Positions 2,632 to 23,086 of a stretch of DNA of 64,000 bases are shown in pieces; the first letter of the stretch is position 1, and the number at the start of each line of letters is the position of its first letter. Origin of the DNA: Bryobacter aggregatus MPL3 (GTDB taxonomy: Bacteria > Acidobacteriota > Terriglobia > Bryobacterales > Bryobacteraceae); the NCBI RefSeq assembly GCF_000702445.1, contig NZ_JNIF01000004.1, positions 558,001 through 622,000 of the forward strand, written 5' to 3'. Below the pieces are notes generated by a model. It was not told the DNA's origin and made no database searches. It saw nothing but the letters and a program-made list of their open reading frames with translations. Made by a program: the position numbers and the translations under genes.

Positions 2632-4017
2632 TTGGAGTTCTTGGAGCGGTTCTTCCAGTCGCCCCGTCGCGTGGTGACCTTGGGGTTGATGATCGGGTCT
2701 TTCATGGGGTCCATGGAGGCGACGGTGGTTGCCACCGCGATGCCGACCATTGTGCGGGAAATGGGTGGGCTGAGCATCTATGGTTGGGCATTTTCCATCT
2801 ACGTTCTGGCCTCCAGCGCCGGAATTCCAGTTGCGGGGAAACTCAGTGATATTTTAGGGCGGCGGCTTGTTTACGCCTGGTCGATGGGTTTGTTTCTGGT
2901 GGCCAGCCTGCTTTGCGCCTTTGCTCCAAGCATGGTGTGGCTGATTGTCTTTCGGGCGCTGCAGGGCTTGGGAGCCGCTGGATTGCTGCCTCTGGCGCTG
3001 GTGATGATCGGCGACATGTTCTCCTTTGAAGAGCGTGCCCGGGTGCAAGCATTCTTCAGTGGCGTTTGGGGGCTGTCGAGCGTGCTCGGTCCGTTGCTCG
3101 GCGGTTTTCTGGTGGACCGGATCGGCTGGGCGAGCGTGTTCTATCTGAATGTTCCGTTCGGGATCCTGTCGGCCTGGTTTGTTTGGCACTGGTGGGAGGA
3201 CCGGCATACGCTCGCTGTCGGGAAACCGCACATCGATTATCCTGGTGCGATCCTGGTGACGCTTTCCGCCGTGACCTTACTTCTGGGCCTGGTGGATCTG
3301 GCGGTTTGGTGGGGCTGGGCGCTGATCCTCTTGTCGGTTGCCTTGGCCTATCTGCTCTTGCGGGTGGAGCGGTCGAGTCCTGACCCGGTTCTGCCAATGC
3401 CCTTATTCCGGGATCGCCTGTTTACGATTTCCGTGCTGCATGCGTTGCTTGTCGGCTGGACTCTGACCGGCGTCACTGCTTATGTACCGCTCTTTGTGCA
3501 GGAAGTACAGAAGAAAAGTGCGACGGAGGCTGGCGCCACGCTCACGCCAATGCTGTTGGCCTGGGTGGTGGCGAGCGCGATTTGCGCACGGGTGATGCTC
3601 CGTGTGGGCTATCGGGGACCGGCAATTGGCGGGATGGTGTGTGTGGTGCTCGGCAGCATTCTGATGAGCCTACTGCAGCCGAATTCCGGAAAGGCATTGT
3701 TGCTCGGGTCAATGGCGGTTCTGGGGGCAGGGCTCGGGCTGACGGTACCCGCGCTTCTGATCGCGGTCCAGATGATGGTGGAGCGCAGATCGATGGGGGC
3801 CGCGACGGCGACGATCCAGTTTGCCAGAAGCATTGGGGGGAGCATCGGGATTGGGGTGATGGGCGCGTTCTTCAGCTTTCGGCTGACTAATGCCGGTATT
3901 GCCGAAGCACTGCAGACGACCTTTCTGGTGGCGGGTGGCGTGTCCGTTCTGGGCCTTGTGCTGACGATTCTGGCGCCGAAGTTGAGTGCGGCCGAGATGG
4001 GACAACGGCGATCCTAG
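2632..4017 (+). CDS. MFS drug-exporter-like transporter (DHA2/EmrB type)
   Basis: Major facilitator superfamily membrane protein of 461 aa, probably a proton-driven exporter of toxic compounds in the inner membrane. The N-terminus (MEATVVATAMPTIVREMGG) is typical of the 14-helix DHA2 branch. GRRLVYAWS fits the loop 2-3 motif, LGPLLGGFLVDRIGW fits the antiporter motif C region, and long hydrophobic helices continue to the C-terminus. The start is the TTG at 2632; a second in-frame TTG at 2641 is equally possible because a GGAG lies between them. Substrate specificity cannot be read from the sequence. The next gene is 98 bases downstream, so the transporter may be transcribed alone. Confidence 0.85.
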   Translation: MEFLERFFQSPRRVVTLGLMIGSFMGSMEATVVATAMPTIVREMGGLSIYGWAFSIYVLASSAGIPVAGKLSDILGRRLVYAWSMGLFLVASLLCAFAPSMVWLIVFRALQGLGAAGLLPLALVMIGDMFSFEERARVQAFFSGVWGLSSVLGPLLGGFLVDRIGWASVFYLNVPFGILSAWFVWHWWEDRHTLAVGKPHIDYPGAILVTLSAVTLLLGLVDLAVWWGWALILLSVALAYLLLRVERSSPDPVLPMPLFRDRLFTISVLHALLVGWTLTGVTAYVPLFVQEVQKKSATEAGATLTPMLLAWVVASAICARVMLRVGYRGPAIGGMVCVVLGSILMSLLQPNSGKALLLGSMAVLGAGLGLTVPALLIAVQMMVERRSMGAATATIQFARSIGGSIGIGVMGAFFSFRLTNAGIAEALQTTFLVAGGVSVLGLVLTILAPKLSAAEMGQRRS

Positions 4018-4115
4018 GCTTCTCGACCCGCAACCAGTTGTGACTGGAAATCGATTGATACCCCAACTCTTCACAGCGGAAGACCGATACGGGCCGCACT
4101 GATAGAATTGCCCCC

Positions 4116-8901: not shown

Positions 8902-10560
8902 ATGCAAAGAAGATCGTTCCTGAATCTTGTAGCGGCGACGAGCTTCGCCGCTACAACCCGTTCAAAAGAGTTGTCTGCTGAGATCGCCATTCTTGGTGGC
9001 GGTACCGGCGGTTGCGCTGCTGCCCTCGGTGCTCTGCGAGAAGGCCGCCGCGTCCTTATGACGGAGGAATGCCGCTGGGTGGGTGGGCAACTGACCTCGC
9101 AGCTTGTGCCCCCCGATGAGCATCCCTGGATCGAGATGTTCGGCGGCACGCGGAGCTACCGTTCCTATCGCGATCATGTGCGCGCCTACTATCGGGCGAA
9201 TTTTCCGCTCACAGAAGAGGCGCGCCATCGCGTCCCGTTCAATCCTGGTGGTGGTTCGGTCAGCGGGATTACGCATGAACCGAAAGTCTCATTGGCGGTT
9301 CTCGAAGGATTCCTGGCTCCCTATGTCGCGAGTGGACAACTGGTTCTGCTGACGGAATTCAAACCGGTGGCGGCGAGTGTTGCGGGAGACCGCGTGCGTG
9401 CTGTCACGGTGGAGCACACCACAGAGAAGCACCGCATCACCATTAGTGCTCCCTACTTCATTGATGCAACCGAACAAGGCGATCTCTTGCCGCTAACAAA
9501 GTGTGAGTTTGTGACCGGCTTTGAGAGCCGGGCGGTGACCGGAGAACCGAGTGCTCCCGATCAGGCGCAGCCGGATAATATCCAGTCTTTCACCGTCTGC
9601 TTTGCGATGGACTATCGTGATGGCGAGAACCATGTGATTGAGAAACCCCAGGAATATGCTTTCTGGCGCGATTATGTTCCGGCGATGAAACCTGCCTGGC
9701 CTGGGAAGTTATTGAGTCTGCGGATGAGCAATCCCCAGACGCTGCAGTTGCGCAATGTCAGCTTCGATCCGACGCAGGATGCGGGACAAGCGGGGGGACC
9801 GTTGAACCTCTGGTTGTACCGCCGGATTCGCCGGCGGCGGAATTATGTGGACTGGCAGCAGGATGCCGACATCTCGCTGGTCAACTGGCCGCAGAATGAC
9901 TATTGGCTGGGCAATCTCCACAATGTTAGTCAGGAGACGGCGGCGAAGCATCTGCATCGGGGCAAGCAGCTTAGCCTTTCTTTGCTGTATTGGCTGCAGA
10001 CGGAGGCGCCTCGCCCTGATGGAAAAGCAGGCTGGCCCGGTTTGCGCCTGCGGCATGATCAGGCTGGAACAGAAGATGGATTGGCGATGTATCCCTATAT
10101 CCGGGAGAGCCGTCGCATCGCTGCTGAGTTCACTGTCCTTGAACAGCATGTCGCCTCGAAGATTCGAGGCGAGAAGGGGACTGCTGAACGTTTTGCCGAT
10201 AGCGTTGGTGTGGGGAGCTATCGAATCGATTTGCATCCTTCGAGTGGTGGGGACAACTATGTTGATGTTGGCTCTTTGCCGTTTCAGATTCCGATGGGTG
10301 CACTGATTCCCAAACGGATGGAGAATCTGTTGGCCGGAGCGAAGAATCTTGGCGTGACGCACATCACCAACGGCTGTTACCGGCTGCATCCGGTGGAGTG
10401 GAACATCGGTGAAAGTGCGGGCGCATTGGCCGCTGAGGCGCTTCGGACCGGTGAGCCGCCTCGCCAGATCCGGAACGACATGAAATTGCGGGATGCCTTC
10501 CAAACGCGCCTCCGCTTGAGAGGGGTACAGACGGAATGGCCCGCTTTGTCGGCTCGTTGA
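8902..10560 (+). CDS. Exported FAD-dependent oxidoreductase
   Basis: Flavoprotein of 552 aa in the large FAD-dependent oxidoreductase family (PF12831-like). The dinucleotide-binding motif is ILGGGTGGCAA at about residues 30-40, followed by RRVLMTEE as the ribose-binding strand end. A twin-arginine-like leader (MQRRSFLNLVAATSFAA) suggests export in folded form with bound FAD. The C-terminus has the second FAD-contact region (NGCYRLHPVEWNIGESAGALAAEAL). The ribosome binding site is AGGAGA. Its last 25 bases overlap the PQQ-propeller gene, so the two are likely translated together. The substrate is unknown; electron transfer to a periplasmic partner is conceivable from context. Confidence 0.87.
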   Translation: MQRRSFLNLVAATSFAATTRSKELSAEIAILGGGTGGCAAALGALREGRRVLMTEECRWVGGQLTSQLVPPDEHPWIEMFGGTRSYRSYRDHVRAYYRANFPLTEEARHRVPFNPGGGSVSGITHEPKVSLAVLEGFLAPYVASGQLVLLTEFKPVAASVAGDRVRAVTVEHTTEKHRITISAPYFIDATEQGDLLPLTKCEFVTGFESRAVTGEPSAPDQAQPDNIQSFTVCFAMDYRDGENHVIEKPQEYAFWRDYVPAMKPAWPGKLLSLRMSNPQTLQLRNVSFDPTQDAGQAGGPLNLWLYRRIRRRRNYVDWQQDADISLVNWPQNDYWLGNLHNVSQETAAKHLHRGKQLSLSLLYWLQTEAPRPDGKAGWPGLRLRHDQAGTEDGLAMYPYIRESRRIAAEFTVLEQHVASKIRGEKGTAERFADSVGVGSYRIDLHPSSGGDNYVDVGSLPFQIPMGALIPKRMENLLAGAKNLGVTHITNGCYRLHPVEWNIGESAGALAAEALRTGEPPRQIRNDMKLRDAFQTRLRLRGVQTEWPALSAR

Positions 10561-12299
10561 TTTTGTTTTGCTGCGTTGCCTGGGCGCAGAGAATCGATCC
10601 TTCCAATGTGGAGAAGCTTCAGGTTGCCTGGCGTTATGCCCATGGTGAGAATGGCCCTGACACTGGTGCGGCGCGCCGCACCAGTTTCTCAGCGACCCCG
10701 GTGCTGGCCGATGGCAAACTGATCCTGGTGACGCCGAAAGGTTCGGCGATCGCGCTTGATGCGAAGAGCGGACGTGAAGTTTGGAAGGTGCCTCGCAATG
10801 GAGAAACCCGCCGGAACTGGGGGGCGGCGCATGCGAAGGGGCGCGTCTTTTATGGCACTCCTGATGGCAAGCTGATCTGTCTGCTGGCAAAGAATGGCGA
10901 GAAGCTCTGGGAGATCGATTTGCGTGCGGGCTTGTACGCAGGACACCTGTCGCAGAATATGCCGCCAGCGATCTTTGGCGATCTGGTGATTACGGGCGGG
11001 GAAGTGCCGGAGGCTACGCCGCAAGGTCCGGAAGGGATGATCCGCGCCTGGCGTCAGAGTGATGGCAGTCCAGTCTGGGAGTTCCATACGGTCCCTCGTG
11101 ACGGGGAGCCGGGGGCAGAAACCTGGGCTCCGGGTTCTCGTAAGAATCGGACTGGCGTCAATGTGTGGGGCCAGTGCGCTGTCGATGAAGTTGCTGGTGC
11201 GCTGTACTGCCCCACAGGGAGCCCGAGTTACGATTTCTACGGTGCAGACCGCAAGGGCGCGGGACTCTATGCCAACAGCGTGGTGGCTCTCGATGGCAAG
11301 ACCGGGAAGCTGCGTTGGCACCGGCAACTGGTGCATCACGATCTATGGGACTATGATTTGCCTGCCAAGCCTGTGCTCTTCGAGGTGAAGCAGAATGGGA
11401 AGACGATTCCAGCCTTGGCCCAGATCACGAAGATGAGTCTGGTTTGGATTCTTGATCGCCGTACGGGCGAGCCGATCTTTGGGTTTGAAGAACGAGCAGT
11501 TCCGCAGAGTACGATGCCAGGGGAAGAGTCTTGGCCCACGCAGCCTTTTCCCTTGAAGCCTGCCCCACTCTCACGAACGGCGCTTGCGTCAGGAGATCTG
11601 AATACGTTGACGCCGGAATGGGAGCAGGAGTGCCGCGCGCTCTATGAACAGGTGGGGCGGTCCGGGCTGTTCACTCCTTGGGAGAAAGATCGGTACACGC
11701 TCATTTTTCCCGGACTTCTGGGAGGTGGCACCTGGAGTGGTGGCTCTTTTGATGCTGCGCGCCGGCTGCTTTTTGTCAACAGCAATGACATCGGATATAT
11801 TGGCAAGCTGACCGAGCGGGACGGGCGTTGGATGCTCTCCACTCCTCCAGGACAGGCTCGTTTTACGACCAAGAATCTTGTGCCCTGTACGGTGCCGCCA
11901 TGGAACACGTTAAACGCGATCGATGTGGATACAGGCGAGGTGCGTTGGAGGGTGCCACTGGGCGAGTTGCCGGAAGCAAAGAAGAAAGGTTTCGATCACA
12001 CGGGTGCTTACGGCCTGGGGGGTTCTCTGGCATTGCCTTCAGGCGTGCTCTTGATTGGAGGGAGCGCGGATTCTACCTTTCGGGCCTTTGATGCTGCGAG
12101 TGGCAAGACGCTTTGGGAACAGCCAATGAAGGCAAGTGTTTATGCGACGCCGATGTCGTTTGTCACAAAGGAGGGCCGGGAGTTTGTGGTGGTTGCGGCA
12201 GGAGGGGGAAGCTTTTTTGCCGGTCCGATGGGGGATGAACTGGTGGCCTTTACGCTTCCTGAGACAACAAAGAGAGAGTTGCCAAGTCGCGGACGTTAG
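10536..12299 (+). CDS. PQQ-dependent dehydrogenase-like beta-propeller protein
   Basis: Secreted quinoprotein of 587 aa. After a signal peptide (MARFVGSLILFCCVAWAQ) come repeated propeller blades with GKLIWE/GSAIALDAKSG-type motifs. The stretches CPTGSPSYDFYG and HHDLWDYDLPAKPVLFEV are characteristic of the PQQ-dependent glucose/alcohol dehydrogenase family. It should oxidise a sugar or alcohol in the periplasm and pass electrons to the respiratory chain. It overlaps the FAD oxidoreductase by 25 bases. The stop codon TAG is shared with a mobile element: TA (12297-12298) is the target duplication and G (12299) is the first base of the inserted element. The ancestral stop was probably also TAG. 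Confidence 0.88.
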   Translation: MARFVGSLILFCCVAWAQRIDPSNVEKLQVAWRYAHGENGPDTGAARRTSFSATPVLADGKLILVTPKGSAIALDAKSGREVWKVPRNGETRRNWGAAHAKGRVFYGTPDGKLICLLAKNGEKLWEIDLRAGLYAGHLSQNMPPAIFGDLVITGGEVPEATPQGPEGMIRAWRQSDGSPVWEFHTVPRDGEPGAETWAPGSRKNRTGVNVWGQCAVDEVAGALYCPTGSPSYDFYGADRKGAGLYANSVVALDGKTGKLRWHRQLVHHDLWDYDLPAKPVLFEVKQNGKTIPALAQITKMSLVWILDRRTGEPIFGFEERAVPQSTMPGEESWPTQPFPLKPAPLSRTALASGDLNTLTPEWEQECRALYEQVGRSGLFTPWEKDRYTLIFPGLLGGGTWSGGSFDAARRLLFVNSNDIGYIGKLTERDGRWMLSTPPGQARFTTKNLVPCTVPPWNTLNAIDVDTGEVRWRVPLGELPEAKKKGFDHTGAYGLGGSLALPSGVLLIGGSADSTFRAFDAASGKTLWEQPMKASVYATPMSFVTKEGREFVVVAAGGGSFFAGPMGDELVAFTLPETTKRELPSRGR

Positions 12300-12321
12300 A
12301 AATGGTCTCATAAACCTCTGA
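12299..12321 (+). repeat. Left terminal inverted repeat of the IS5-type element
   Basis: Begins GAAATGGTCTCATAAAC and pairs with 13135-13157 on the opposite strand. Mismatches are at positions 4, 5 and 18 of the repeat. Its first base completes the TAG stop codon of the upstream dehydrogenase gene. Confidence 0.85.
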
Positions 12322-12372
12322 AGAGCGGAATATGGGAATCTGAAAGAGCTCTGGTGAATTGCGCGGAAGTGT

Positions 12373-13148
12373 ATGCGTGGACGATGGGACTTAAAGGACG
12401 ACCAATGGGAAGTCGTGGAGCCGGTGTTGCGTCCGCAGCGCCGAGCGGATCAGCGTGGCAGGCCGTGGCACGATACTCGATGCGTATTGAACGGGGTGCT
12501 GTGGGTTTTAGGGAGTGGGCCGCAGTGGCGTGAACTACCAGAAAGATATCCGCCATACCAGACCTGTCACCGACGTTTTCAACAGTGGGTGCGCAGCGGA
12601 AAGCTGGAAGAGACGCTGAGAGTGTTGGCCCGCTACTTACATGAGCGAGGCCAGTTGAATCCGGAAGAAGCGTTCGTTGATGCCACATTCGCGAGCGCAA
12701 AAAAGGGGGCCTCGCCGTTGGCCCCACCCGTCGCGGCAAGGGCACGAAGATCATCGCTCTCGCCGCTGGTGACAGTCTTCCTCTCGCCGTTGCTGTCGAC
12801 AGCGCTTCGCCGGCCGAGTGTCAGCTTGTGGAAGACGTTCTGGCCGGAAGCTTCCTCGATGAAATGCCCAGGCGACTCATCGGAGACAAAACTTACGACT
12901 CGGATAAGCTCGACGAAAAGCTTGCCGAAGAGTACGGCATCGAGATGATCGCGCCGAACCGGCGCAACCGGGGCAAGACTCAGGATGGACGGCCATTGCG
13001 CCGTTACCGCCGCCGCTGGCGCGTCGAGCGACTCTTTGCCTGGCTTCATCACTTTCGACGCCTGGTCACTCGTTGGGAATACCACGTCGAAAACTTCCTC
13101 GGATTCGTTCGCCTCGGTTGCTTACAAATCTTACTCAGACGTTTATGA
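12373..13148 (+). CDS. IS5-family transposase made by -1 frameshifting
   Basis: Transposase expected to be 258 aa when the ribosome shifts by -1 at A AAA AAG (12699-12705). Phase 0 alone gives a 191-aa product ending at 12948. The first part (DLKDDQWEVVEPVLRP...) is the usual N-terminal domain of IS5-type proteins. After the shift the sequence continues KKGGLAVGPTRRGKGTKI, in perfect family register. The DDE residues are D in FVDATF, D in LIGDKTYD and E in RWRVERLFAW. A GGAAG ribosome binding site precedes the ATG. The shift is judged programmed rather than a decay mutation because both halves are otherwise intact and the heptamer sits in the correct phase. Confidence 0.88.
12699..12705 (+). 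other. Programmed -1 frameshift site (A AAA AAG)
   Basis: Heptamer in X XXY YYZ phase relative to the ATG at 12373, followed by GGGGG. A one-base backward slip moves decoding into the frame that encodes the catalytic C-terminus and ends at 13148. This is the standard slippery sequence used by many insertion sequences. Confidence 0.85.
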
Positions 13149-13157
13149 GACCGCTTC
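13135..13157 (-). repeat. Right terminal inverted repeat of the IS5-type element
   Basis: On the minus strand it reads GAAGCGGTCTCATAAACG, matching the left end at 20 of 23 positions. It contains the transposase stop region and is followed directly by the TA shared with the next element. Confidence 0.85.
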
Positions 13158-13159
13158 TA

Positions 13160-13171
13160 GTGTCCTGAGTC
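13160..13171 (+). repeat. Left inverted repeat of the IS630 element
   Basis: GTGTCCTGAGTC. It pairs with 14336-14347 on the other strand with one mismatch at the third position. Confidence 0.8.
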
Positions 13172-13215
13172 CTAAGTGGCTGGCATAATATAACCGCTTG
13201 TTCTATGGTTGAAGC

Positions 13216-14337
13216 ATGGAAGCGAAGCGAGGACGACCCAAGAAGCAGGAGTTGGTGGTAACCGAGCAGCAACGGGAAGAGTTGGAACGGTTGGTGCGGC
13301 AGCCAAGAAAGTCCCGAGCAACAGCGTTTCGGGCACGAATCATCCTGGAATGCGACGGCGGATTGAGTAACGCCGCAGTTGCGGCGAAGCTGAGGACAAC
13401 TGGGTTTACTGTTGGATTCTGGCGTAATCGTTTCATTGTGGGCGGGATCTCAACTTTGGGAGATGAGCCTCGGCCCGGGGCGCCACGAGAAATCGGCGAC
13501 GACAAGATTGAGCAGGTCGTCCGGCTCACACTGGAGAAGGCCCCCAAGGGAGCAACCCATTGGTCCAGCCGAATGCTGGCGACGAGAACAGGACTGAGTC
13601 AATCCACCATCAGCCGCATCTGGCGTGCCTTTGGTCTGAAGCCACATCGAAGCGAAACCTTCCAGTTGTCGAACGATCCGTTGCTGGTTGACAAAGTGCG
13701 GGACATTATTGGGCTCTATCTGTCGCCCCCGCATCATGCGTTGGTGCTGTGCGTGGATGAGAAAAGTCAGATCCAGGCGCTAAGCCGGAACCAACCCGTG
13801 TTGCCGCTACGAAGCGGTCAACTTGAGCGCCGCACGCACGACTATCAACGACATGGAGTGACCAGTCTGTTTGCGGCTCTGGATATCGCCACCGGCCGGG
13901 TATTGGGCAAATGCTATCGCCGTCATCGCTCTGTAGAGTTCCTCGATTTCTTGAAAAAAATCGATGCGGCCGCCCCTGCCGACCTGGATGTCCATCTGGT
14001 GCTGGATAACTACGGAACGCACAAGACCGCCAAGGTTCGACAGTGGCTCCAAAAGAGGCCCCGGTATCATCTGCACTTTACTCCCACACATGCCTCTTGG
14101 TTGAACCAAGTCGAACGCTGGTTTGCGTTGTTGACACAACGGCAAATCAAGCGTGGCTCTCATCGAAGCGTCTCGGAACTAGAGGACGCTATTCGGAAGT
14201 TCATTGCCGTGCACAACGAGCAACCCAAACCATTCCTCTGGACCAAATCTGCCTCTCAAATTCTTGAGTCCATCGCCCGCTTTGCTTCAACCACCCTTGC
14301 CGCCCATCAACCGAACACTTCTGCTAGAAATCAATGA
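13216..14337 (+). CDS. IS630-family transposase
   Basis: Transposase of 373 aa with an N-terminal helix-turn-helix part (residues about 15-145, including the second [17 protein letters not shown]) and a DDE catalytic domain. The triad is visible as D181 (CVDEKSQIQ), D264 ([10 protein letters not shown]) and E300 (WLNQVERWF). Full length and uninterrupted, so probably functional. The ATG at 13216 lies 56 bases inside the left end, leaving room for a short promoter. The C-terminal stop overlaps the right inverted repeat, as is common in compact elements. Confidence 0.95.
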
Positions 14338-14347
14338 CTCAGGAGAC
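14336..14347 (-). repeat. Right inverted repeat of the IS630 element
   Basis: GACTCAGGAGAC on the plus strand. It is followed by the TA duplication at 14348-14349. Confidence 0.8.
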
Positions 14348-14392
14348 TAGTGTTCCCAAGGCTGTGGGGCGGAAGAGTTTTGCTTCCTTTGC

Positions 14393-14873
14393 TACTTTGA
14401 TCAGATCTCCACGATGCCCGCAGAACGCAAAGGCCTGCCCCGAGAATGGATCGCCGCTCAGTGCCTGTTGCACTATTGCGCTCAGCCCGGTGAAGTTGCG
14501 GCGCATATCGGTTCGCCCCGCCACGATCCAAATCTGCACACCAGTTGGCGCGAGGTTTATCCCAGCACCTTGTCGAGCATCAGCCGCAAACAACTCAGAC
14601 CGGGTGATCCTTCGATCCAAAGTTGAACAGTTGAACACCGGCAACCTCCACTTCAATACTGCCTCCCTGCGGCTGAGACGCTGCCATTCGCACTGGCAAT
14701 ACCTACGGGTGAATCCTCATCGTTGCGCAGACCTTGCGTATATAGTCGTTGCCACTGAAACATCTGGTTGGTATTGACGCCGTGCTGTCACGCCACCTCT
14801 GCCACAGATCTTTCAGCGTTCAAGGTCGCCTCGACAATCACTTGGCACTCAGCACGCCTCCGCTGAATACGGA
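14393..14873 (-). pseudogene. Relic of an IS66-family element (orfA and orfB fragments)
   Basis: Two decayed reading frames on the minus strand. Upstream (about 14873-14700) lies an IS66 OrfA-type helix-turn-helix, recognisable as RRRAECQVIVEATLNAERSVAEVA, then an in-frame TGA at 14788-14790 where an Arg codon is expected, then QHGVNTNQMFQW. Downstream (about 14554-14393) is an OrfB fragment with the hallmark GVQIWIVAGRTDMRRNF and DPFSG, ending abruptly after GDLIKV. The joining part is scrambled and the large orfC transposase is absent. It is therefore an old, non-functional remnant, older than the intact elements to its left. Confidence 0.8.
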
Positions 14874-15206
14874 TTCCACCTTTTCCGACCCGGAGCCCGC
14901 GCCCAACATCATTGATTCCGCTCTCCGTACCCATCCCTCAAGCTTCCACTCTCTTCGGCCTCTTGCACAGACGGCCTAGGGTGGACGCTTACCGAGATCG
15001 CGACAAGCAGTGGCAAAGACTTGGATGGATCGGCGGCTTCGTTGTCAGGCAGGACGGCCGGGAACTGGATTCGGAATCGCCCATCGTAGGCTAGGGACGG
15101 ATGCAGGAACGCGGTGGCGGAAGCCTGCTTTTTATTGGATTGCTGTTTCCACTTTCCGGAATCGAGTGGAGCAACACAGAACGAATCCTGTCGGCTGAGC
15201 TCTTTC
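14874..15206. other. Non-coding stretch with no recognised content
   Basis: About 330 bases between the IS66 relic and the permease gene. Only short frames occur, with no family resemblance, and I saw no RNA gene or convincing terminator. It may contain further degraded mobile-element sequence. Confidence 0.5.
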
Positions 15207-17726
15207 TTATTCGGAGCGCAATGCCTCAGCGGGATCGAGTCGGAGGACTTGGCGAGTTTTAAGCCAGATCGCCAGGATTGCGACGCAGAAGAGCGAAGCC
15301 AGCGGAAGGAGCCGGAGGTTCCAAGTTGCGGGCTGGATCGTTTCGATCAGCTTTGTCAGCAGGGTAGCGGTGGTAGGGATCAGCAGAAAACCCGCACTCA
15401 ACCCGAGTAGGATTGCCGGGAGCATCTGAGCTAAGATCATGGCGCGCACCTGCCGGGATTGTGCTCCGACAGCGAGTCGAATCGCGATTTCGCGCGTGCG
15501 CTGTGCCATTGCATTTGCACAGATGCTATAGCAGTTGAGGAGCGTGAGCAGGAGCGAAAATCCACCAAAGAAGGCGAGCACGATGGTGTAGAGATTTGGT
15601 TTGGCCAGAGTCCTTTGGACTCGCTGCTCAAGCGGCAGGACATCGTAGACGGGTACGTCGGGTGAAAGGCTCTGCAGGGCTGCTGCCAGTTGGTGAAGGG
15701 GTGCATTCCCACTTTTGTGGTGTATGGCAATGGTGAAGAAATTGGGGGGCGCTTGCGCCATGGGCCGGAAGAGCGCGGGCATGACTCCGCCTTCAGCGCC
15801 ATCAAACTGAATGTCTCGAGTTACCCCGATGATCGTTGCGGGCTTCTCGTCTTTGTCCGTCGGGCGCAGCTTTTGACCGAGCACCGCGCGCGCTCCACCA
15901 TCCAGCTTCGCGTAGGACTCATTGACGATCACGACGGGCTCGGAGTTGAGGGTATCGTGAGCCGTAAAGTCGCGGCCTGCCAGGAAGGGCGTGCCAACGG
16001 TTTGAAAGAAGTCCGGACTGGCGCTCAGCGTAATCAACATCTGCTCCTGTGGTGTCGTTCGCAGTTTGTAGTTTGCGGCAGAGAAGGTTTTGGTGGCGAT
16101 GGGGAAGTAGTCGATGGCAGCTGCCGAGTGGAACTGTGGGAAGGCGCGGACTTGCGCGAGCGCCTTGCTGATGTAGTCGATGCTTTGCTGTTTGCCCTCG
16201 TAGCGTGTGCCGGCGAGCGAGATGGTTGCCGTACTGATGTTCTTGGTCGTCAAGCCGAGATCGGTATTGTGGAGCCGGATGAGCGCTTCACCGATGCTGA
16301 GCGAACTTGCCAGCAGAACGACCGTGAGTCCGAACTGCAACGCGAGGAGCGCGTGGCGGATGGAATTTGCTCGCATCGCCCAAGCGCCTCGTCGCAAAAG
16401 CACTGGCGTGAAGCCAAAGGCGAGACCCGAGAGCAGGGAGAGTAGGAACGCGAAAAGGAGTACCTGGGAATCGAAGACTTCATAGTGCTGGAAGCGGAAG
16501 TTCGGCGGGAAGTACAGAAAGCCGAGCTGGACTGTTAGGTGGGCGATTCCGAGGCTGAGGAGTCCGGAGATCAGCGAGAGCAAGATGCATTCCGTCAGGA
16601 TTTGTTGACTGATGCGGGCGATTCCAGCTCCGAGGGAGCTGCGAATCTGGAACTCGCGCTGGCGTGCCGCATAGCGCGTGAGCAAGAGGTTCGCCATATT
16701 CGCACAGGCGATCAGGAGGACGGAAGTGATGCCGACAAAGAGAACCCAGACGGATTTTGCGATTGGGCCGGCAAGCTGTTCGCGCAAAGAGACGAGACGG
16801 GCTTTCCACTCCGGGGCGGAGGAGAAGGGTTTGCCATTGGCCGCGGCATCGAGTTCGAAGGCGCGCACCGCAGTGGGGAAGGAGAGATGGGGCTTCATCC
16901 GTCCGATGATCTTGATGTTGTCGGGGCTCTGCTTCGGGATCCTGTTCCAGTCGAATGCTGTGGGCGTCCAAAGGCCAGCTTGATCCGGGTAGTCGAATCT
17001 AGGGGGTGCGATTCCAATGACGGTGAGCGGGAAATTATTGATCCGGATCTTCTGACCCAGGATGCGCAGGTCGCCTCCGTAGGCCTGTTCGAACAAGGCA
17101 TGGGAGAGAATGGCGACATCGCCCTTTCCACTCACGCCTTCTTCGTGGGTGAAGTTTCGTCCCCGGTAAATGGGCGTTCCCAGCAGGTCGAAGAAGTTTG
17201 GGGATACTTCCACCACGGGGATGCGTAGGGATTGGGAGTTCCCCGACAGATTGAGCTTGGAAACGTTGACCGCGGTGGCTCCTGAGAGATAGGACGTAGA
17301 GCCTGCCCATGCTTCAAAGGCTGTTTGCCCTTTAAACAGTGGTCCGAAGAAGATGTTCAGTTCCACGAGCTCTTCGGCGTGGGCGAAGGGCAGAGAACGG
17401 TAGAGCGTCGCGCTGAGGATGCTGAAGATTCCGGTGGAGACTCCGATGGCCAGGGAGAGCGACAGGATCGCGAGGAGCGTGACGCCCATAGCTTTGCGCC
17501 AGGTACGCCAGCAGTAGCGGGTGTCTTGCAGGAACTCGCTGCCCATGATTTGCGGCCAGAGTAAGAGGAACTCCCAGAGGCTCTGGAGGAGCAGGCGGAG
17601 TCGTGAGAAGGCCGAAGGGGCGTCCATCCATTCGTCGGCGAACTGCTGGTGCAGAGCGCTTCCGTACTCAGCGCGGAAGCCTGAAGGGTAGAGACGGATG
17701 AGCTGGTTAAAGAACCACATGCGCAC
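15207..17726 (-). CDS. ADOP-type ABC transporter permease (MacB/FtsX-like)
   Basis: Permease of 839 aa with the layout of the acidobacterial duplicated orphan permeases. A cytoplasmic N-terminal permease prefix (about residues 1-70) is followed by a first helix near 81-104 and a MacB-like periplasmic domain, then an FtsX three-helix block around 330-440. A second periplasmic domain and a second FtsX block follow at about 690-830. No ATPase gene is adjacent, as is usual for this family. Related MacB permeases move peptides or lipoproteins or signal across the envelope, but the ADOP cargo is not known to me. The gene overlaps padR by 20 bases, so it is translationally coupled and probably controlled by PadR. 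Confidence 0.9.
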   Translation of the reverse strand: MRMWFFNQLIRLYPSGFRAEYGSALHQQFADEWMDAPSAFSRLRLLLQSLWEFLLLWPQIMGSEFLQDTRYCWRTWRKAMGVTLLAILSLSLAIGVSTGIFSILSATLYRSLPFAHAEELVELNIFFGPLFKGQTAFEAWAGSTSYLSGATAVNVSKLNLSGNSQSLRIPVVEVSPNFFDLLGTPIYRGRNFTHEEGVSGKGDVAILSHALFEQAYGGDLRILGQKIRINNFPLTVIGIAPPRFDYPDQAGLWTPTAFDWNRIPKQSPDNIKIIGRMKPHLSFPTAVRAFELDAAANGKPFSSAPEWKARLVSLREQLAGPIAKSVWVLFVGITSVLLIACANMANLLLTRYAARQREFQIRSSLGAGIARISQQILTECILLSLISGLLSLGIAHLTVQLGFLYFPPNFRFQHYEVFDSQVLLFAFLLSLLSGLAFGFTPVLLRRGAWAMRANSIRHALLALQFGLTVVLLASSLSIGEALIRLHNTDLGLTTKNISTATISLAGTRYEGKQQSIDYISKALAQVRAFPQFHSAAAIDYFPIATKTFSAANYKLRTTPQEQMLITLSASPDFFQTVGTPFLAGRDFTAHDTLNSEPVVIVNESYAKLDGGARAVLGQKLRPTDKDEKPATIIGVTRDIQFDGAEGGVMPALFRPMAQAPPNFFTIAIHHKSGNAPLHQLAAALQSLSPDVPVYDVLPLEQRVQRTLAKPNLYTIVLAFFGGFSLLLTLLNCYSICANAMAQRTREIAIRLAVGAQSRQVRAMILAQMLPAILLGLSAGFLLIPTTATLLTKLIETIQPATWNLRLLPLASLFCVAILAIWLKTRQVLRLDPAEALRSE

Positions 17727-18060
17727 CTGCCAGCCGTACGAGTTCCTGCATGCGGAGCGCTTCGGCGCGGGTGCAGTCCCGGCCCAGTGGAGTGATGCGG
17801 TAGTAGCGGCGGCGCTGGTCGTCGAGATGCGGATCTGGGCGTTCCTCAGATTCTTCGATGAGACCTTGCTCGAGGAGCCGATTGATGTGGCCGTAGAGGA
17901 GACTCGGGCCAGGGTTCAACTTCTTGTGCGTGCGGGCGAGGATTTCGCGTTTGAGTGCGTAGCCGTGACGCTCTCCCTCGAGTAGGGAGAGCAGCAAGTG
18001 GAAACTGAGCGGAGGCAGGGGAAGAAGGTCTTCGACTTTCGAGTCTTCCTGTTTCGGCAT
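17707..18060 (-). CDS. PadR-family transcriptional regulator
   Basis: Short (117 aa) winged-helix regulator. The PadR core is clear: FHLLLSLLEGERHGYALKREI (helices 1-2), GPSLLYGHINRLLEQGLIEE (recognition helix and wing) and RRRYYRITPLG (wing strand), followed by a short dimerisation helix. It lies directly upstream of, and overlaps, the ADOP permease; the padR-ADOP pair is a recurrent acidobacterial arrangement. A 19-base dyad touches its start codon (18061-18079), which suggests that it represses its own operon. The inducer cannot be deduced. Confidence 0.93.
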   Translation of the reverse strand: MPKQEDSKVEDLLPLPPLSFHLLLSLLEGERHGYALKREILARTHKKLNPGPSLLYGHINRLLEQGLIEESEERPDPHLDDQRRRYYRITPLGRDCTRAEALRMQELVRLAGAHVVL

Positions 18061-18079
18061 AGTAGTTCAGATTATGAAC
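18061..18079 (-). promoter_or_regulatory. Dyad at the padR start, candidate PadR operator
   Basis: TAGTTCAgattaTGAACTA has perfect 7-base arms and a 5-base centre. It begins directly upstream of the padR ATG (18058-18060), so a bound regulator would block either RNA polymerase or the start region. Autoregulation is inferred from position and symmetry; binding is untested. Confidence 0.6.
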
Positions 18080-18320
18080 TAGATGAGGACTCGCTTGCAA
18101 GAGCTTCCTAGAACTTTCCTGATTTGAGCAGGTCATAAATCTGTATTTTATTGAGTTTTATTTCTAATTCATGAAATGTATAATTACGTACGACTTGTCT
18201 TAAATCGATAAGGTTAAATAGTGTATTTATCTTAGATTGCGAGTAAGGTTCCTGATCTAAGAGGAAGGCTCTTGAATGGTTTTTTGTATCGGATCTGCGA
18301 CTTTGAAAGGTAGGGCGGCG
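18080..18320. other. AT-rich divergent intergenic region
   Basis: Noticeably AT-rich compared with the surroundings. It separates padR (minus) from the collagen-like gene (plus) and must contain both promoters. A TATAAT occurs at 18179-18184 on the plus strand without a well-placed -35 box. No gene is supported here. Confidence 0.5.
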
Positions 18321-19604
18321 ATGTCCGCAACTTTCCTTTTGTCTTTGGCGTTTCTGACGCCTGTTGCTTTTGGGCAACGCGGTTCCTCTCATGCGATTCC
18401 GCTGGAGAACTGGTCTGTGGAGAAGCAGAACCGGGATTTTTTGAATGCGGCGATTCCTGCTCCTCCCGATGGGGCTTCGCCCGCACTGGTCTTTATTGCA
18501 ATTCCGCCCTGCCGCGTGCTGGATACGCGTGCGGAAGGCGGGTCGGGAAAGACGGGTGACTTTGGGCCGCCTTCTCTCATCGCGAACGAATCACGAATCA
18601 TTGCAGTGGCGGCCACGAATTGCGGAGTGCCTGCGGCGGCCGCGTACTCGATGAACTTTGTGTCTGTGACACCGGTGGGCAAGACGGTGGGTTGGGTGGC
18701 GGCTTGGCAGGATAACCGGCCCTGGCCGGGAACGGTTGTGCTCAATGCTCCTCTTGGCGGAATCATTGGGAATGCGGCGATTGTCCCCGCGAGCCCCGAG
18801 GGGCGGATCCAGGTGTTGTCGACGGATCCGACCGATCTTGTCATCGATATGAATGGCTACTTTGTCCAGGCATCCATGATTGAAGTGGCTCAGGGCCCCG
18901 CGGGTCCAACCGGGCCAACCGGTCCCCAGGGCCCTGCAGGGCCACAGGGACCCCAAGGACCTGTTGGACCCGCTTCGACAATGCCTGGTCTTGTGGGACC
19001 TCCGGGGCCGGCAGGACCCGCAGGCGCGGTTGGGATTCCTGGGCCGACGGGGCCAGCAGGACCTTCCGGCGTGCAGGGGCCTCCTGGACCTCAGGGACCG
19101 ATTGGATACACGGGCCAGCCGGGACTGATGGGGTCGCCAGGGCCTGTGGGACCCACCGGTGCAACCGGGCAGGCGGGCGGCATTCGTTCATTCGCTGACT
19201 TTTATGCCTTGATGACGCCAGACAACGCTGCCCCGGTGCCGGTTGGCGGCGACGTGAGTTTTCCCCAGGATGGACCAACGTCTTTGACCAGCATTTCACG
19301 GGCGGGACTTTCCAGCTTCAAGCTGGCGTCAGCCGGAATTTACCAAGTGCAATTTCAGGTCAGCATCAGTGAACCGGGACAGTTGGTGCTCACGATCAAT
19401 GGCGAGGACCTTCCCTACACGGTGGTGGGACGGGCGAGCGGATCGAGTCAACTGGTTGGTGTGGCGCTGATCGAAACCAAGACGATCAACGCCATTCTGA
19501 CGGTGCGGAACCCGGTTTCCAACGCTAGTTCTCTGACCCTGGCGCCGATGGCGGGTGGTGTACGGAGCGTCTCTGCGCATCTGGTGATCACTCAGCTGCA
19601 ATAG
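18321..19604 (+). CDS. Secreted collagen-like protein with BclA-like C-terminal domain
   Basis: Secreted protein of 427 aa from the ATG at 18321, which follows AGGTAGGG and gives a clean signal peptide ([19 protein letters not shown]); an earlier frame start at 18276 gives a poorer one. Three parts follow. Residues about 55-188 carry the PCRVLDTR ... DMNGYF pattern seen in secreted bacterial proteins. About 30 Gly-X-Y collagen triplets span residues 192-287 with one four-residue break (STMP). The C-terminal head of about 140 aa resembles the BclA/C1q-like trimerisation fold. The collagen part should form a triple helix that projects the head from the cell surface. Ligand and role (adhesion or matrix) are unknown. 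Confidence 0.88.
18894..19181 (+). repeat. Collagen-type Gly-X-Y coding repeat
   Basis: About 30 triplet repeats, mainly Gly-Pro-X with Ala, Thr, Gln or Val in third position: nine triplets, a STMP interruption, then twenty-one more. Bacterial collagens lack hydroxyproline; stability here would come from proline-rich triplets. Codon use is varied, so the repeat is not a recent slippage product. Confidence 0.85.
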
Positions 19605-19622
19605 CCTCTTCGCAAAACGAAA

Positions 19623-19660
19623 CTGCGGTATATCCGTCTTTGGGGACCGATATACCGCAG
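19623..19660. terminator. Hairpin between convergent genes
   Basis: CTGCGGTATAT (19623-19633) pairs perfectly with ATATACCGCAG (19650-19660). It lies between the collagen-like gene and the convergent E2 gene. T-rich tracts on both sides allow it to act in either direction, though the U-tracts are weak. Confidence 0.65.
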
Positions 19661-19687
19661 CTTTGTTAGGAGGGAAGTAGGAGCTTG

Positions 19688-21013
19688 TTAGAGAACCTGT
19701 TCGCTGAAGTTCTCGAGGATCGACTTGATCTTCTGGCAGAACTGGTCGGCGAGCGCGCCGTCGATCAGACGATGGTCGAAGCTGAGCGCGAGGTGCGCCT
19801 GGCTGCGGATTGCGATCATGTCGTCGATCACCACCGGAACCTTCTCGATGGTGCCGATGCCGAGGATGGCAACGTTCGGCTGGTTGATGACAGGCGTCGC
19901 AAAGACACTGCCGAAGCTGCCGAAGTTGGTGAGCGCGAAGGTGCCGCCGGAGATTTCGTCGGGCTTCAACTGCTTGCCGCGGGCGCGGTTGGCCAGGTCG
20001 ACAATGGAGCGTTGCAGGCCGACGATGTTCAGTTCGTCTGCGTGCTTGATCACCGGAACGATCAGACCGAGGCCGCCGTCGAGAGCGACTGCGATGCCGA
20101 GGTTGGTCTCGTTGTGGAAGATGATGTTGTCGCCTTCGATCGATGCGTTCAACAGCGGGAAGGCACGCAAGGCCTCCACTGCGGCGCGGGCGATGAAGGG
20201 CAGGAAGGTGAGGCCGAAGCCGTAGCGGGCCTGGAACTCATCTTTATGCTTGGCGCGGAGCTTGGCGATCTTGGTCATGTCGACCTTGTGTACGGTGGTG
20301 ACATGTGCGGAGATGGCCTGGGACTTGATCATGTGCTCGGCAATCTTCTTGCGCATGATGCCCATCGGCTCGACGCGGGTCTTGGACGGAGTTGCTGCCG
20401 CAGGCGGCGGAACTGCGGCGCTGGGGGCAGACGGGGCGGCGGGAGCTGCCGGAGCCGCTGCACTGGCGAGAGTTTTGTTTGCCTGGTTCTGGATGTAGGA
20501 TTCGATGTCCTGCTTGGTGATGCGGCCACCTGCGCCAGAGCCGGGGACCTGGGCCAGATCAATGTTGTACTCGCGAGCCATCTTGCGGACCAGCGGTGAC
20601 AAGGGGCCGTTTACGGAGTCCGCTTCGATGGCGGGGGCTGGCGCCGGAGCGGCAGGCGGTGGGGGCGGCGGAGCCGGTGCAGGAGCAGGAGCCGGTGCAG
20701 GAGTGGGGGCGGGAGCAGGCGGAGCTGGGGGCGGGGGAGCCGGTGCTGCTGCCGCAGGAGCCGGAGCGGCTGCGCCGCCTGCCTCACCAATGCGGGCGAC
20801 CAGAGTATTGATGGCGACGGTTGCGCCTTCCTGCACCAGGACCTCCGTGAGAATGCCGGCGGCGGGCGAAGGAATCTCAGTGTCGACCTTGTCGGTGGAA
20901 ATTTCAAAGAGCGGCTCATCGCGCTCTACCTTATCGCCGGGCTTCTTCAGCCAGCGGGTGAGGGTTCCTTCAACGATCGACTCGCCCATCTGGGGCATTA
21001 CGACATCAGGCAT
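19688..21013 (-). CDS. Dihydrolipoamide acyltransferase (2-oxoacid dehydrogenase E2)
   Basis: E2 core subunit of a pyruvate, 2-oxoglutarate or branched-chain 2-oxoacid dehydrogenase complex (441 aa). The lipoyl domain at residues 1-77 carries the lipoylation lysine K42 in EISTDKVDTE. A very Ala/Pro-rich flexible linker (about 80-135) is followed by the E3/E1-binding domain (LVRKMAREYNID...GRITKQDIE), a second Ala/Pro linker, and the catalytic domain ending with HRLIDG (H414, D418). Which oxoacid is used cannot be fixed from the sequence, and no E1 gene is in view. Its first 16 bases overlap lipB, which encodes the enzyme that starts lipoylation of this very domain. Confidence 0.93.
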   Translation of the reverse strand: MPDVVMPQMGESIVEGTLTRWLKKPGDKVERDEPLFEISTDKVDTEIPSPAAGILTEVLVQEGATVAINTLVARIGEAGGAAAPAPAAAAPAPPPPAPPAPAPTPAPAPAPAPAPPPPPPAAPAPAPAIEADSVNGPLSPLVRKMAREYNIDLAQVPGSGAGGRITKQDIESYIQNQANKTLASAAAPAAPAAPSAPSAAVPPPAAATPSKTRVEPMGIMRKKIAEHMIKSQAISAHVTTVHKVDMTKIAKLRAKHKDEFQARYGFGLTFLPFIARAAVEALRAFPLLNASIEGDNIIFHNETNLGIAVALDGGLGLIVPVIKHADELNIVGLQRSIVDLANRARGKQLKPDEISGGTFALTNFGSFGSVFATPVINQPNVAILGIGTIEKVPVVIDDMIAIRSQAHLALSFDHRLIDGALADQFCQKIKSILENFSEQVL

Positions 21014-21699
21014 GGAAGCATCTCCTGTAAGTTTTCAATGGAATCGGTAAATTCGTGGTGGAAGATCTCCGCCAGATGGCGGGAAAGTACCCGCATCACT
21101 TCCTCACGCTGCACCGTGACGCCTAGCGCTTCCATCGAGGTGACGGGAAGCGTAAGTCCACAGGGAACGATGTACTGGAAGTAGCGGAGATCTGTGTTGA
21201 TGTTGAGGGCAAAGCCGTGGGAGGTGACCCAACGGCTGATGTGCACGCCGAGCGCGCAAATCTTGGCAGGCGCAAGGCCCGCTTGCTGGACGTAGACACC
21301 GGTTTCTTTGCCGGTGCGCGTATGTGCCTCGATGCCAAAGCCAGCGAGCGTGCGGATCACCGCCTGCTCGACGCCTTGCACATAGGCGCGGACATCTTTC
21401 TTCCAACGGGTGAGTTCAAAGATCGGATACCCGACGAGCTGTCCGGGGCCGTGATAGGTGACATCACCGCCTCGATTTGCTTCGTGGACCTCGATCCCCA
21501 GACGCGCCAGTTGGTCGCGGCCAGCGAGGATATTGCTCTCACTGGCATTACGGCCGAGGGTGATGACGTGCGGATGTTCGACGAAAAGAAGAGTATCCGG
21601 CACCAGACCGGCTTTTCTCTTTTCGACATAACTCTGCTGGATCGACCAGGCTTCCGCCCAAGGCAGAGGTCCCAGGTCGATGACGTCAAAATCAGGCAT
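20998..21699 (-). CDS. lipB: Octanoyltransferase LipB
   Basis: Transfers octanoyl groups from acyl carrier protein to lipoyl domains, the first step of endogenous lipoate synthesis. At 233 aa from the ATG at 21699 it has normal length; a longer frame from 21747 would only add residues from the upstream gene. Diagnostic motifs are RGGDVTYHGPGQLVGYPI, the catalytic lysine in PAKICALGVHI, SHGFALNIN and the catalytic cysteine in VPCGL. It overlaps lpd by 8 bases and E2 by 16, so all three proteins are probably made from one transcript. Enzyme and substrate are thus encoded side by side. Confidence 0.95.
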   Translation of the reverse strand: MPDFDVIDLGPLPWAEAWSIQQSYVEKRKAGLVPDTLLFVEHPHVITLGRNASESNILAGRDQLARLGIEVHEANRGGDVTYHGPGQLVGYPIFELTRWKKDVRAYVQGVEQAVIRTLAGFGIEAHTRTGKETGVYVQQAGLAPAKICALGVHISRWVTSHGFALNINTDLRYFQYIVPCGLTLPVTSMEALGVTVQREEVMRVLSRHLAEIFHHEFTDSIENLQEMLPCLMS

Positions 21700-23086
21700 T
21701 AATCGCCATTCCGTAGACGGCGTTGAATGCTTCGCCGACTGCTTCATAGAGAGTGGGATGGGCGTGGATCGTGTTCATCATCACCTCGACGGTGGATTCC
21801 GATTCCATGGCGGCAACGGCTTCGGCAATCAGTTCATAGCCGTGATGGCCAATGATGTGGACACCGAGAATCTCGCCATAGGTGTCGTCGGCAACCACTT
21901 TGACGAAGCCTTCATGATGCCCGCTGATGGAAGCCTTGGAATTTGCGGCAAAGGGGAACTTGCCGACTTTCACCTTATAGCCCTGGGCCTTAGCCTGGGA
22001 TTCGGTGAGGCCGACACTGCCGATGCCGGGGTCCGTGTAGGTAGCGCCCGGAATGCGGTTGCGGCGAATCGGCTGGACTTCGACGCCTGCAATGTGACCA
22101 ATGGCGATCATGCCCTCGGCGGTGGCGACGTGGGCCAGTTGCGGGGTGCCGGCGACAACGTCGCCAATGGCATAGACACCGGGTTCAGAAGTCTGCTGGA
22201 AACCGTTCACCTTCAGGAAGCCGCGATCGACTTCGACTTTGGTGTTTTCGAGGCCGATGCTCTCGGTGTTCGGCTTACGGCCGACGGCGACGAGCAAGCT
22301 CTCCACTTCTACCTGTTCCTGGCTCCCGTTAGCGAGGGTCGCGGTGAACTTGACGCTATTGGGGCCGTTGACGATGTTTTCGACCTTCGCGCTGGTCTCG
22401 ATGCGGATGCCCATCTTCTTGAAGCAGCGCTCGAGTTCTTTCGAGACTTCTTCATCTTCGACCGGAACGACGCGGGGCAGCATCTCGAAGATCGTTACTT
22501 CACTGCCGAAGCGGCGGAAGATGCTGGCAAACTCGACGCCCACCGCGCCTGCACCGATAATGGCGAGCGACTTGGGAACGCTGGGCAGGTCGAGGATTTC
22601 GACGTTGGTGAGGATGCGTGGGGACTGGGGCTGGACATTGGGAATCATCCGGGCCTCGGATCCAGTGGCGATCACAATATTCTTCGATTCGATGATCTGG
22701 GTCTGCCCGTTATGACTGACTTCGATCTTGCCCCCACCGAGCAGCTTTGCGTAGCCCGCAATGACGTCGACCTTGTTCTTCTTCATGAGGAACTCGACGC
22801 CTTTGGCGTGCTTGGAGACGATCTTGGCCTTGCGGTCGATCACGTTGGGGAAGTGCAGAACCGGAGATTGGCAGGAGATTCCTTCCTCCTCCGGGTGCAC
22901 AAAATAGTCCCAGACGCTGGCGCTGTGGAGCAGCGCTTTGGTGGGAATACATCCCACGTGGAGGCAAGTGCCACCCAGCTTCGGAGACTTTTCAATGATC
23001 GCGGTCTTGAGACCGTATTGGCCGGCTCGCACGGCGGCAGAGTAGCCGCCAGGGCCACTACCGATAATCACGACATCGTAGGACAT
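21692..23086 (-). CDS. lpdA: Dihydrolipoyl dehydrogenase (E3)
   Basis: Flavoprotein of 464 aa that reoxidises dihydrolipoamide on E2 with NAD+. The FAD motif IIGSGPGGYSAAVRAGQYG is at residues 7-25. The redox-active disulphide is C41/C46 in GGTCLHVGCIPTK, the NAD-binding motif is IIGAGAVGVEFAS, and the active-site His lies in HAHPTLYEA near the C-terminus. It is first in the operon with lipB and E2. The divergent POTRA gene lies about 245 bases upstream, so promoters for both directions should sit between 23087 and 23330. Confidence 0.96.
   Translation of the reverse strand: MSYDVVIIGSGPGGYSAAVRAGQYGLKTAIIEKSPKLGGTCLHVGCIPTKALLHSASVWDYFVHPEEEGISCQSPVLHFPNVIDRKAKIVSKHAKGVEFLMKKNKVDVIAGYAKLLGGGKIEVSHNGQTQIIESKNIVIATGSEARMIPNVQPQSPRILTNVEILDLPSVPKSLAIIGAGAVGVEFASIFRRFGSEVTIFEMLPRVVPVEDEEVSKELERCFKKMGIRIETSAKVENIVNGPNSVKFTATLANGSQEQVEVESLLVAVGRKPNTESIGLENTKVEVDRGFLKVNGFQQTSEPGVYAIGDVVAGTPQLAHVATAEGMIAIGHIAGVEVQPIRRNRIPGATYTDPGIGSVGLTESQAKAQGYKVKVGKFPFAANSKASISGHHEGFVKVVADDTYGEILGVHIIGHHGYELIAEAVAAMESESTVEVMMNTIHAHPTLYEAVGEAFNAVYGMAINA

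Follow-up and report, generated by a model that had tools for sequence, protein, structure and literature searches.

The ends of IS5-type insertion sequences were found to be strong hot spots for an IS630-type element in Bryobacter aggregatus MPL3, the one genome (5.75 Mb in 4 contigs) for which this is shown. One such meeting of the two elements lies in a window of 64,000 nucleotides (contig NZ_JNIF01000004.1, positions 558,001 to 622,000, forward strand; window coordinates are used below unless a contig is named), where an IS5-type and an IS630-type element stand side by side on a common TA at the stop codon of a gene for a PQQ-dependent dehydrogenase-like protein. An earlier reading of this stretch from its letters alone (the sequence-only reading) described the two-element anatomy correctly and missed its recurrence: six of the nine full IS630 copies in the genome adjoin an IS5-type end via a common TA (L025, which is the copy in the window, L027, L030, L031, L032 and L033). 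The abutment of both elements is a pattern, and more than chance. The position of most IS630 copies at IS5-type ends suggests that one jumping element builds the landing sites of another.

We searched the genome for IS5-type ends by their terminal-repeat pattern, with at most 3 mismatches, and found 25, of which 17 read CTAG before any IS630 insertion. IS630 was present at 6 of these 17 ends and at none of the 8 non-CTAG ends, and all nine of its copies were flanked by C-TA and TA-G. For the background, 248 CTAGs in a 400-kb sample were extrapolated to ~3,560 genome-wide; occupancy of the remaining CTAGs was 3 of ~3,547, which is ~417-fold below that of the IS5 ends (Fisher P = 3.6e-13). The abutment could be only a side effect of a common target rule and selection if IS5 ends were safe CTAGs like any other non-coding CTAGs. 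Both elements do favour TAG-containing targets, and 1 of 16 insertion rows of this genome lay inside a called gene compared with 137 of 288 background CTAGs. However, the IS5 ends are just 17 of ~1,870 non-coding CTAGs genome-wide (extrapolated from 151 of 288 CTAGs in 464 kb, genes having been called with a home-made gene caller), which gives P = 4.6e-11 for the presence of 6 of 9 IS630 copies at these ends. The excess still gave P = 6.6e-7 if the available sites were five times fewer, and the IS5 ends would need a 0.345 share of the available targets for P = 0.05. A mere side effect of the shared rule is thus strongly disfavoured, and we consider it unlikely.

The nine IS630 copies are nearly invariant, any two of them differing by 0–2 of 1188 bases. 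The IS5-type element matched 24 places in the genome, 9 of which are full or nearly full copies, and none of the 8 others compared was more than 98.1% identical to the copy in the window. The IS5 partners of L025, L027, L030, L032 and L033 belong to the lineage of the window's element, although only matching pieces (L015 and L013) are left beside L030, and the partner of L031 belongs to another IS5 lineage with 46–62% protein identity. The right and the left end of IS5 were each used in three of the six abutments, the left end of IS630 in four and its right end in two. Since all four end-to-end combinations were seen (the right or left end of IS5 with the left or right end of IS630), these are separate insertions and no composite. 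Movement of both elements as one composite unit could be argued from the number of abutting pairs and from L025 and L032, which share the IS5-right/IS630-left arrangement. The sequence-only reading had named such a unit as an alternative to look for in the flanks, and the far-side flanks, which were different in each pair, speak against it. The two elements do not diverge together either, the near-invariance of IS630 standing against four full IS5 partners that are 91.6–98.1% alike and one partner of another lineage, and three of the nine IS630 copies, like several of the IS5 copies, have no such partner. A composite transposon was ruled out by these mixed arrangements and this unequal divergence, and we give it practically no credence. 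A check of the lone IS630 sites for repeat ends covered L026 and L029, one side each. The L026 flank was unique, and the L029 flank was partly repeated (81–82%) at 3 places ~30 kb away, with a match that ends 141 bases short of the junction. At G000:C3:1235910-1236264 degenerate IS630 pieces were noted, split into three fragments of changing orientation.

We hold it to be very probable that the pair arose by two ordered insertions, of the IS5-type element first and then of IS630 into the CTAG made by IS5, and that IS5 ends are hot through this CTAG and a further attraction. The IS5-type element, of the IS427-like group, would have entered the TA of TTAG, which is the host stop codon with its preceding base, and the stop would have stayed TAG because the element starts with G. 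Because the element ends with C, this terminal C, the TA and the host G would have made a new CTAG at the right junction (13157..13160, the G being that of IS630 now), which is the putative IS630 target. The recently expanded IS630-type element would then have entered this CTAG, duplicating the TA and leaving both elements with one TA in common. The IS5 insertion would in this way turn TTAG, hardly used by IS630, into the CTAG that IS630 requires. IS5-type targets in this genome include TTAG, ATAG, GTAG and CTAG and are less strict than those of IS630. The base after the right TA was G in the 9 full or nearly full IS5 copies (for three copies directly followed by IS630 the G scored is the base beyond IS630) and A in the shortened copies L011 and L019. 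The right end of IS5 usually makes a CTAG because the element ends in C and the next base after the TA is usually G.

Minus both elements, the window has TTAG at this site and L032/L002 has ATAG (on the IS5 strand), neither of which is an IS630 target elsewhere in the genome itself. As judged from these sites, insertion of IS5 before IS630 is much the easier order and the likely one, and the divergence of the elements agrees with it; at this locus IS5 probably made the target. In the reverse order, IS630 would have come first and the IS5-type element would later have entered the adjacent TA. IS5-type elements accept CTAG too, they would find N-TA-G at the left junction of any IS630 copy, five of the nine full or nearly full IS5 copies are mutually identical and therefore recently active, and 2 of 85 IS630 relatives in other genomes sit at CTAA, which is TTAG on the opposite strand. 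However, this order needs an insertion of IS630 into TTAG here and into ATAG at L032 when all its other copies in the genome are at CTAG. It also has to account for a diverged IS5 copy in the window (98.1% to the nearest of 8) and for two other IS5 partners that look old, namely the pieces beside L030 and the other lineage beside L031. We judge the reverse order to be improbable.

Several points weigh against ordered insertion at an IS5 hot spot. The hot-spot figure comes from one genome, 9 copies, an extrapolated CTAG background and a home-made gene caller, and at least 2 further diverged IS5 ends (L012 and L020), which are CTAG without IS630, fall outside the 25. CTAG flanks were found at 82 of 85 IS630 elements with clean ends in other genomes; the three off CTAG are one at CTAC and the two at CTAA, which mean that an IS630-first order is not impossible. 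These 85 were obtained from 109 cross-species loci after removal of 3 without an end pair, 20 whose terminal repeats were poor and 1 taken for a duplicate because of its (3-base) left flank, and some of the end pairs, for example that of L089, may be false. No empty site and no one-element intermediate were found when the host gene was sought in 37 genomes, of which 9 matched, the own genome included. The best same-genus homologue has 76% protein identity and ends ~10 residues earlier; L174–L177 and L180 end ~9–12 residues earlier, the alignments of L178 and L179 continue through an in-frame stop, and L181 extends further, the DNA 3′ of the 8 other homologues having been looked at for up to 80 bases. 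A search by DNA for close IS630 copies in 61 genomes matched 0 of 7 same-genus genomes. No extended target motif was detected, base counts being nearly flat at 15 positions in 167 flanks compared with 540 control half-sites. In a blind test for terminal repeats in other genomes (at least 13 of 18 matches), 7 of 158 flanks scored, one of them (L063) from the own genome, compared with 7 of 390 control CTAGs, which include far ends of neighbouring elements. This excess was weak and not significant (P = 0.13), and a general attraction of IS630 to any element end in other genomes was rejected.

The extra attraction at IS5 ends may lie in recognition of the IS5 repeat or its shape, in breaks or distortions made by the IS5 transposase at its own ends, or in local accessibility. 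Terminal repeats of the form TAG-N8-TCTCATAAAC or similar are common to two IS5 lineages in this genome. That the IS630 transposase recognises such repeats, or their DNA shape, as a targeting signal beyond CTAG is an idea that we put forward tentatively and consider rather doubtful. If true, one insertion sequence family would systematically colonise the ends of another, and end recognition together with CTAG-making IS5 ends would provide self-renewing landing sites outside genes.

Direct reading of the locus confirmed the order TA, IS5-type, TA, IS630-type, TA to the single base, so that the sequence-only reading had placed two separate elements with one common middle TA correctly. The host gene (10536..12299, + strand) encodes a beta-propeller protein (Pfam PQQ PF01011, 1.4e-154), and the first two bases of its stop codon are the left target duplication of the IS5-type element (12297..12298). 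The latter (12299..13157, +, 859 bp, G first and C last) has 17-bp imperfect terminal inverted repeats, GAAATGGTCTCATAAAC on the left (12299..12315, +) and GTTTATGAGACCGCTTC on the right (13141..13157, +), defined by direct reading and comparison of copies. With its TA flanks this is IS5/IS427 anatomy, and the assignment to an IS427-like group, made from the anatomy and by comparison with a table in PMC3281130, is a putative one. Its transposase appears to be split over two frames on the + strand, the first (12373..12948) carrying the DUF4096 half (PF13340, 4.9e-25) and the second the DDE half (12828..13148; PF01609, 3.7e-08; this start is a mechanical one and the frame is open further upstream). 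A −1 shift at the slippery run AAAAAAG (12699..12705, +) fuses the frames into a predicted product of 258 aa that matches NF033580 with 216.3 bits (cut-off 110). The A6G run was kept in all 9 IS5 copies examined, one of which has its frames broken elsewhere; this copy, L004 (G000:C3:1936905-1937757), lies beside the IS630 copy L027 and is one base shorter.

The TA common to both elements (13158..13159) is followed by the IS630-type element (13160..14347, +, 1188 bp, G first and C last), with short terminal inverted repeats GTGTCCTGAGTC / GACTCAGGAGAC and a transposase of 373 aa (13216..14337, +). This protein has a DDE_3 domain (PF13358, 1.6e-23) and a helix-turn-helix N-terminus (PF13565 HTH_32, 7.2e-15) and matches NF033545 with 264.9 bits (cut-off 100). 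TA target duplication and CTAG preference likewise place the element in the IS630 family, from which it is predicted to be a cut-and-paste transposon; cut-and-paste transposition by an IS630-family transposase has been shown for ISY100 (excerpt of PMC2170065). The description of the two elements as intact in the sequence-only reading holds for the whole IS630 open reading frame (ORF) and for the IS5 frames, which the −1 shift joins into a complete transposase. The right target duplication of IS630 (14348..14349) is followed by the host G and, 43 bp past this last TA, by a truncated IS66 tnpB remnant (14393..14536, − strand; residues 41–88 of ORF 14339–14656, PF05717, 2.6e-14); mobile-element debris was already beside the site before the pair. 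Promoter and terminator scans of positions 12000–15300 gave no excess over shuffled sequence.

The host ORF terminates CGT TAG, and the flanks joined without the elements read ...GGACGT TA GTGTTCCC, that is, CGT TAG TGT. The sequence-only reading was right that the stop is formed by TA and the first G of the IS5-type element and that termination is preserved, and its restored CGT TAG stands; its continuation, CGT TAG GTGTTC, has one G too many. As judged from this junction, only the host protein would be preserved by the insertion, since the sequence that used to follow the gene on its 3′ side has been moved 2 kb off; settlement without cost, as proposed in the sequence-only reading, goes beyond this. 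The rule proposed there, that an element beginning with G leaves the stop when it enters the TA of TAG, is correct, and TAA would likewise become TAG. Among the CTAGs sampled in 464 kb, 46 of 288 contain the TAG stop of a called gene (16%, or 30% if only non-coding CTAGs are counted), and 246 of 10,467 TA dinucleotides (2.4%) lie within TAG or TAA stops. The insertion rows of this genome fell at stops in 3 of 16 cases, the window included (binomial P = 0.48 compared with the CTAG share). This count keeps two IS630 copies judged to be beside an IS5 remnant and L230, whose end is unclear. Besides the TAG stop in the window, the three comprise L028/L239, an IS630 copy at the TAG that ends a hemD-like gene (HEM4, 2e-31; NCBIfam uroporphyrinogen-III synthase models match below their cut-offs, the best over nearly full length), and one shortened IS5 copy at the TAA that ends a called gene of 814 codons. 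By a long-ORF criterion the count was 4 of 11, and L005, whose ORF has no Pfam match, and L029 were lost with the home-made gene caller, which is based on codon usage.

An active preference for stop codons as landing sites might be read from these three genes and from IS630 relatives at the stops of recognised genes. The relatives' sites in other genomes ended an ORF of at least 100 codons in 22 of 67 cases compared with 37 of 197 control CTAGs (P = 0.026; 67 of the 85 loci had enough flank). However, P was 0.06 at 80 codons and 0.17 at 150, and the own-genome rows do not exceed the share of TAG stops among CTAGs. The preference beyond the target rule that the sequence-only reading had raised was not supported, and we think there is little chance that stops are actively preferred; landing in stop codons follows from the CTAG rule. 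A Pfam scan covered 10 of the 16 stop-ending ORFs, picked by eye and coming from 8 of 13 loci; 8 of the 10 had a match and 2 had none. The genes with an IS630 relative at their stop include a CoA-transferase (L111), a 2-hydroxyacid dehydrogenase (L172), an SDR (L146), an AraC (L141), an integrase (L137), a GH127 (L086), and a nitroreductase and an MFS transporter (both L171). At L171 (JANQKS010000050.1, element at ~2910–4080) one CTAG is the stop of the convergent nitroreductase and transporter genes, and both keep their stops, as the element has G for its first base and C for its last.

Known systems are compared here on the basis of excerpts of the cited sources. CTAG-directed transposition is known for the IS630 of Shigella sonnei (Tenzen et al. 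1990; Tenzen and Ohtsubo 1991, cited in PMC2170065), which is like the present element in TA duplication, in the preference for TA in CTAG and in transposase family NF033545; in the present genome, however, a CTAG is occupied ~400 times more often if it lies at the end of another insertion sequence than if it lies elsewhere. IS4321 and IS5075 target the terminal repeats of Tn21-family transposons (Partridge and Hall 2003, cited in PMC11187229) and likewise favour the end of another mobile element. Their enzyme is of the IS1111 type, DEDD and guided by a seekRNA (PMC11187229), whereas a DDE transposase of the IS630 type acts here, with insertion at the TA beside the terminal repeat. Membership in the IS4321/IS1111 kind was ruled out by the DDE_3/IS630 transposase and by insertion beside, not within, the repeat; no search for a guide RNA was made. 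ISPsy19 is reported to adjoin ISPsy2 and MITEPsy1 habitually in Pseudomonas syringae (PMC3189936); ISPsy19 and ISPsy2 are both of the IS5 family and the target of ISPsy19 is CHHD, whereas here two families are linked directly by CTAG. The IS427-group IS5 elements of Paracoccus (PMC3281130) are ~830–865 bp long, mostly make a 2-bp duplication, and some have two overlapping frames with a frameshift motif. Size, duplication and frameshift layout are alike, but nothing was seen of IS630 landing at elements of that group, and the text of PMC3281130 mentions neither IS630 nor CTAG. A search of the open-access literature returned nothing on a bias of IS630 towards IS5 ends or on stop codons as sites of CTAG elements, a weak negative with subscription papers outside its scope; the IS630 hot spot at IS5 ends, and stops as a built-in share of CTAG targets, may be new.

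In this genome the preparation of landing sites by one mobile element for another can be put in numbers: IS5-type ends turn NTAG into CTAG, and IS630 occupies 6 of 17 such ends. There is also a simple reason why gene disruption need not accompany the spread of CTAG-directed elements that begin with G and end with C. Roughly half of the sampled CTAGs lie outside called genes, 16% are TAG stops, and after insertion at such a stop the TAG is restored whichever strand the gene is on. Any genome with enough copies can serve to test these two points.

In other genomes, IS630 relatives were seen next to IS630 ends (L105, L107 and L161), next to IS5-type elements (L115 and L165, with an adjacent DUF4096 transposase, and more weakly L154, with a weak IS5 match) and next to a DDE_5 transposase (L137). 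L146, L148 and L160 have IS-end-like flanks in common, without a transposase shown directly adjacent. At L165 in Streptomyces diastatochromogenes both IS630 flanks start with GGGCGTGT, as if the CTAG lay between two facing IS5-type ends; the DUF4096 transposase is shown for the left flank alone. In Ensifer sesbaniae (G458), 4 of 7 IS630 loci (L281/L286, L290, L291 and L292) are at a CTAG by the palindromic repeat TAGAGCGCCGTGCGTTCAGATGAACGCA, one of them a variant, and at one repeat locus two different IS630 elements abut. Within 3 mismatches this repeat occurs at 17 places in that genome (L294–L310), 3 of which are at IS630 loci. Broken same-family IS630 copies lie close together in another acidobacterial genome (G446, contig C5, ~17400–22600; L064, L285 and L288), and one of them is fused to a same-family IS5 fragment (72–74% DNA identity).

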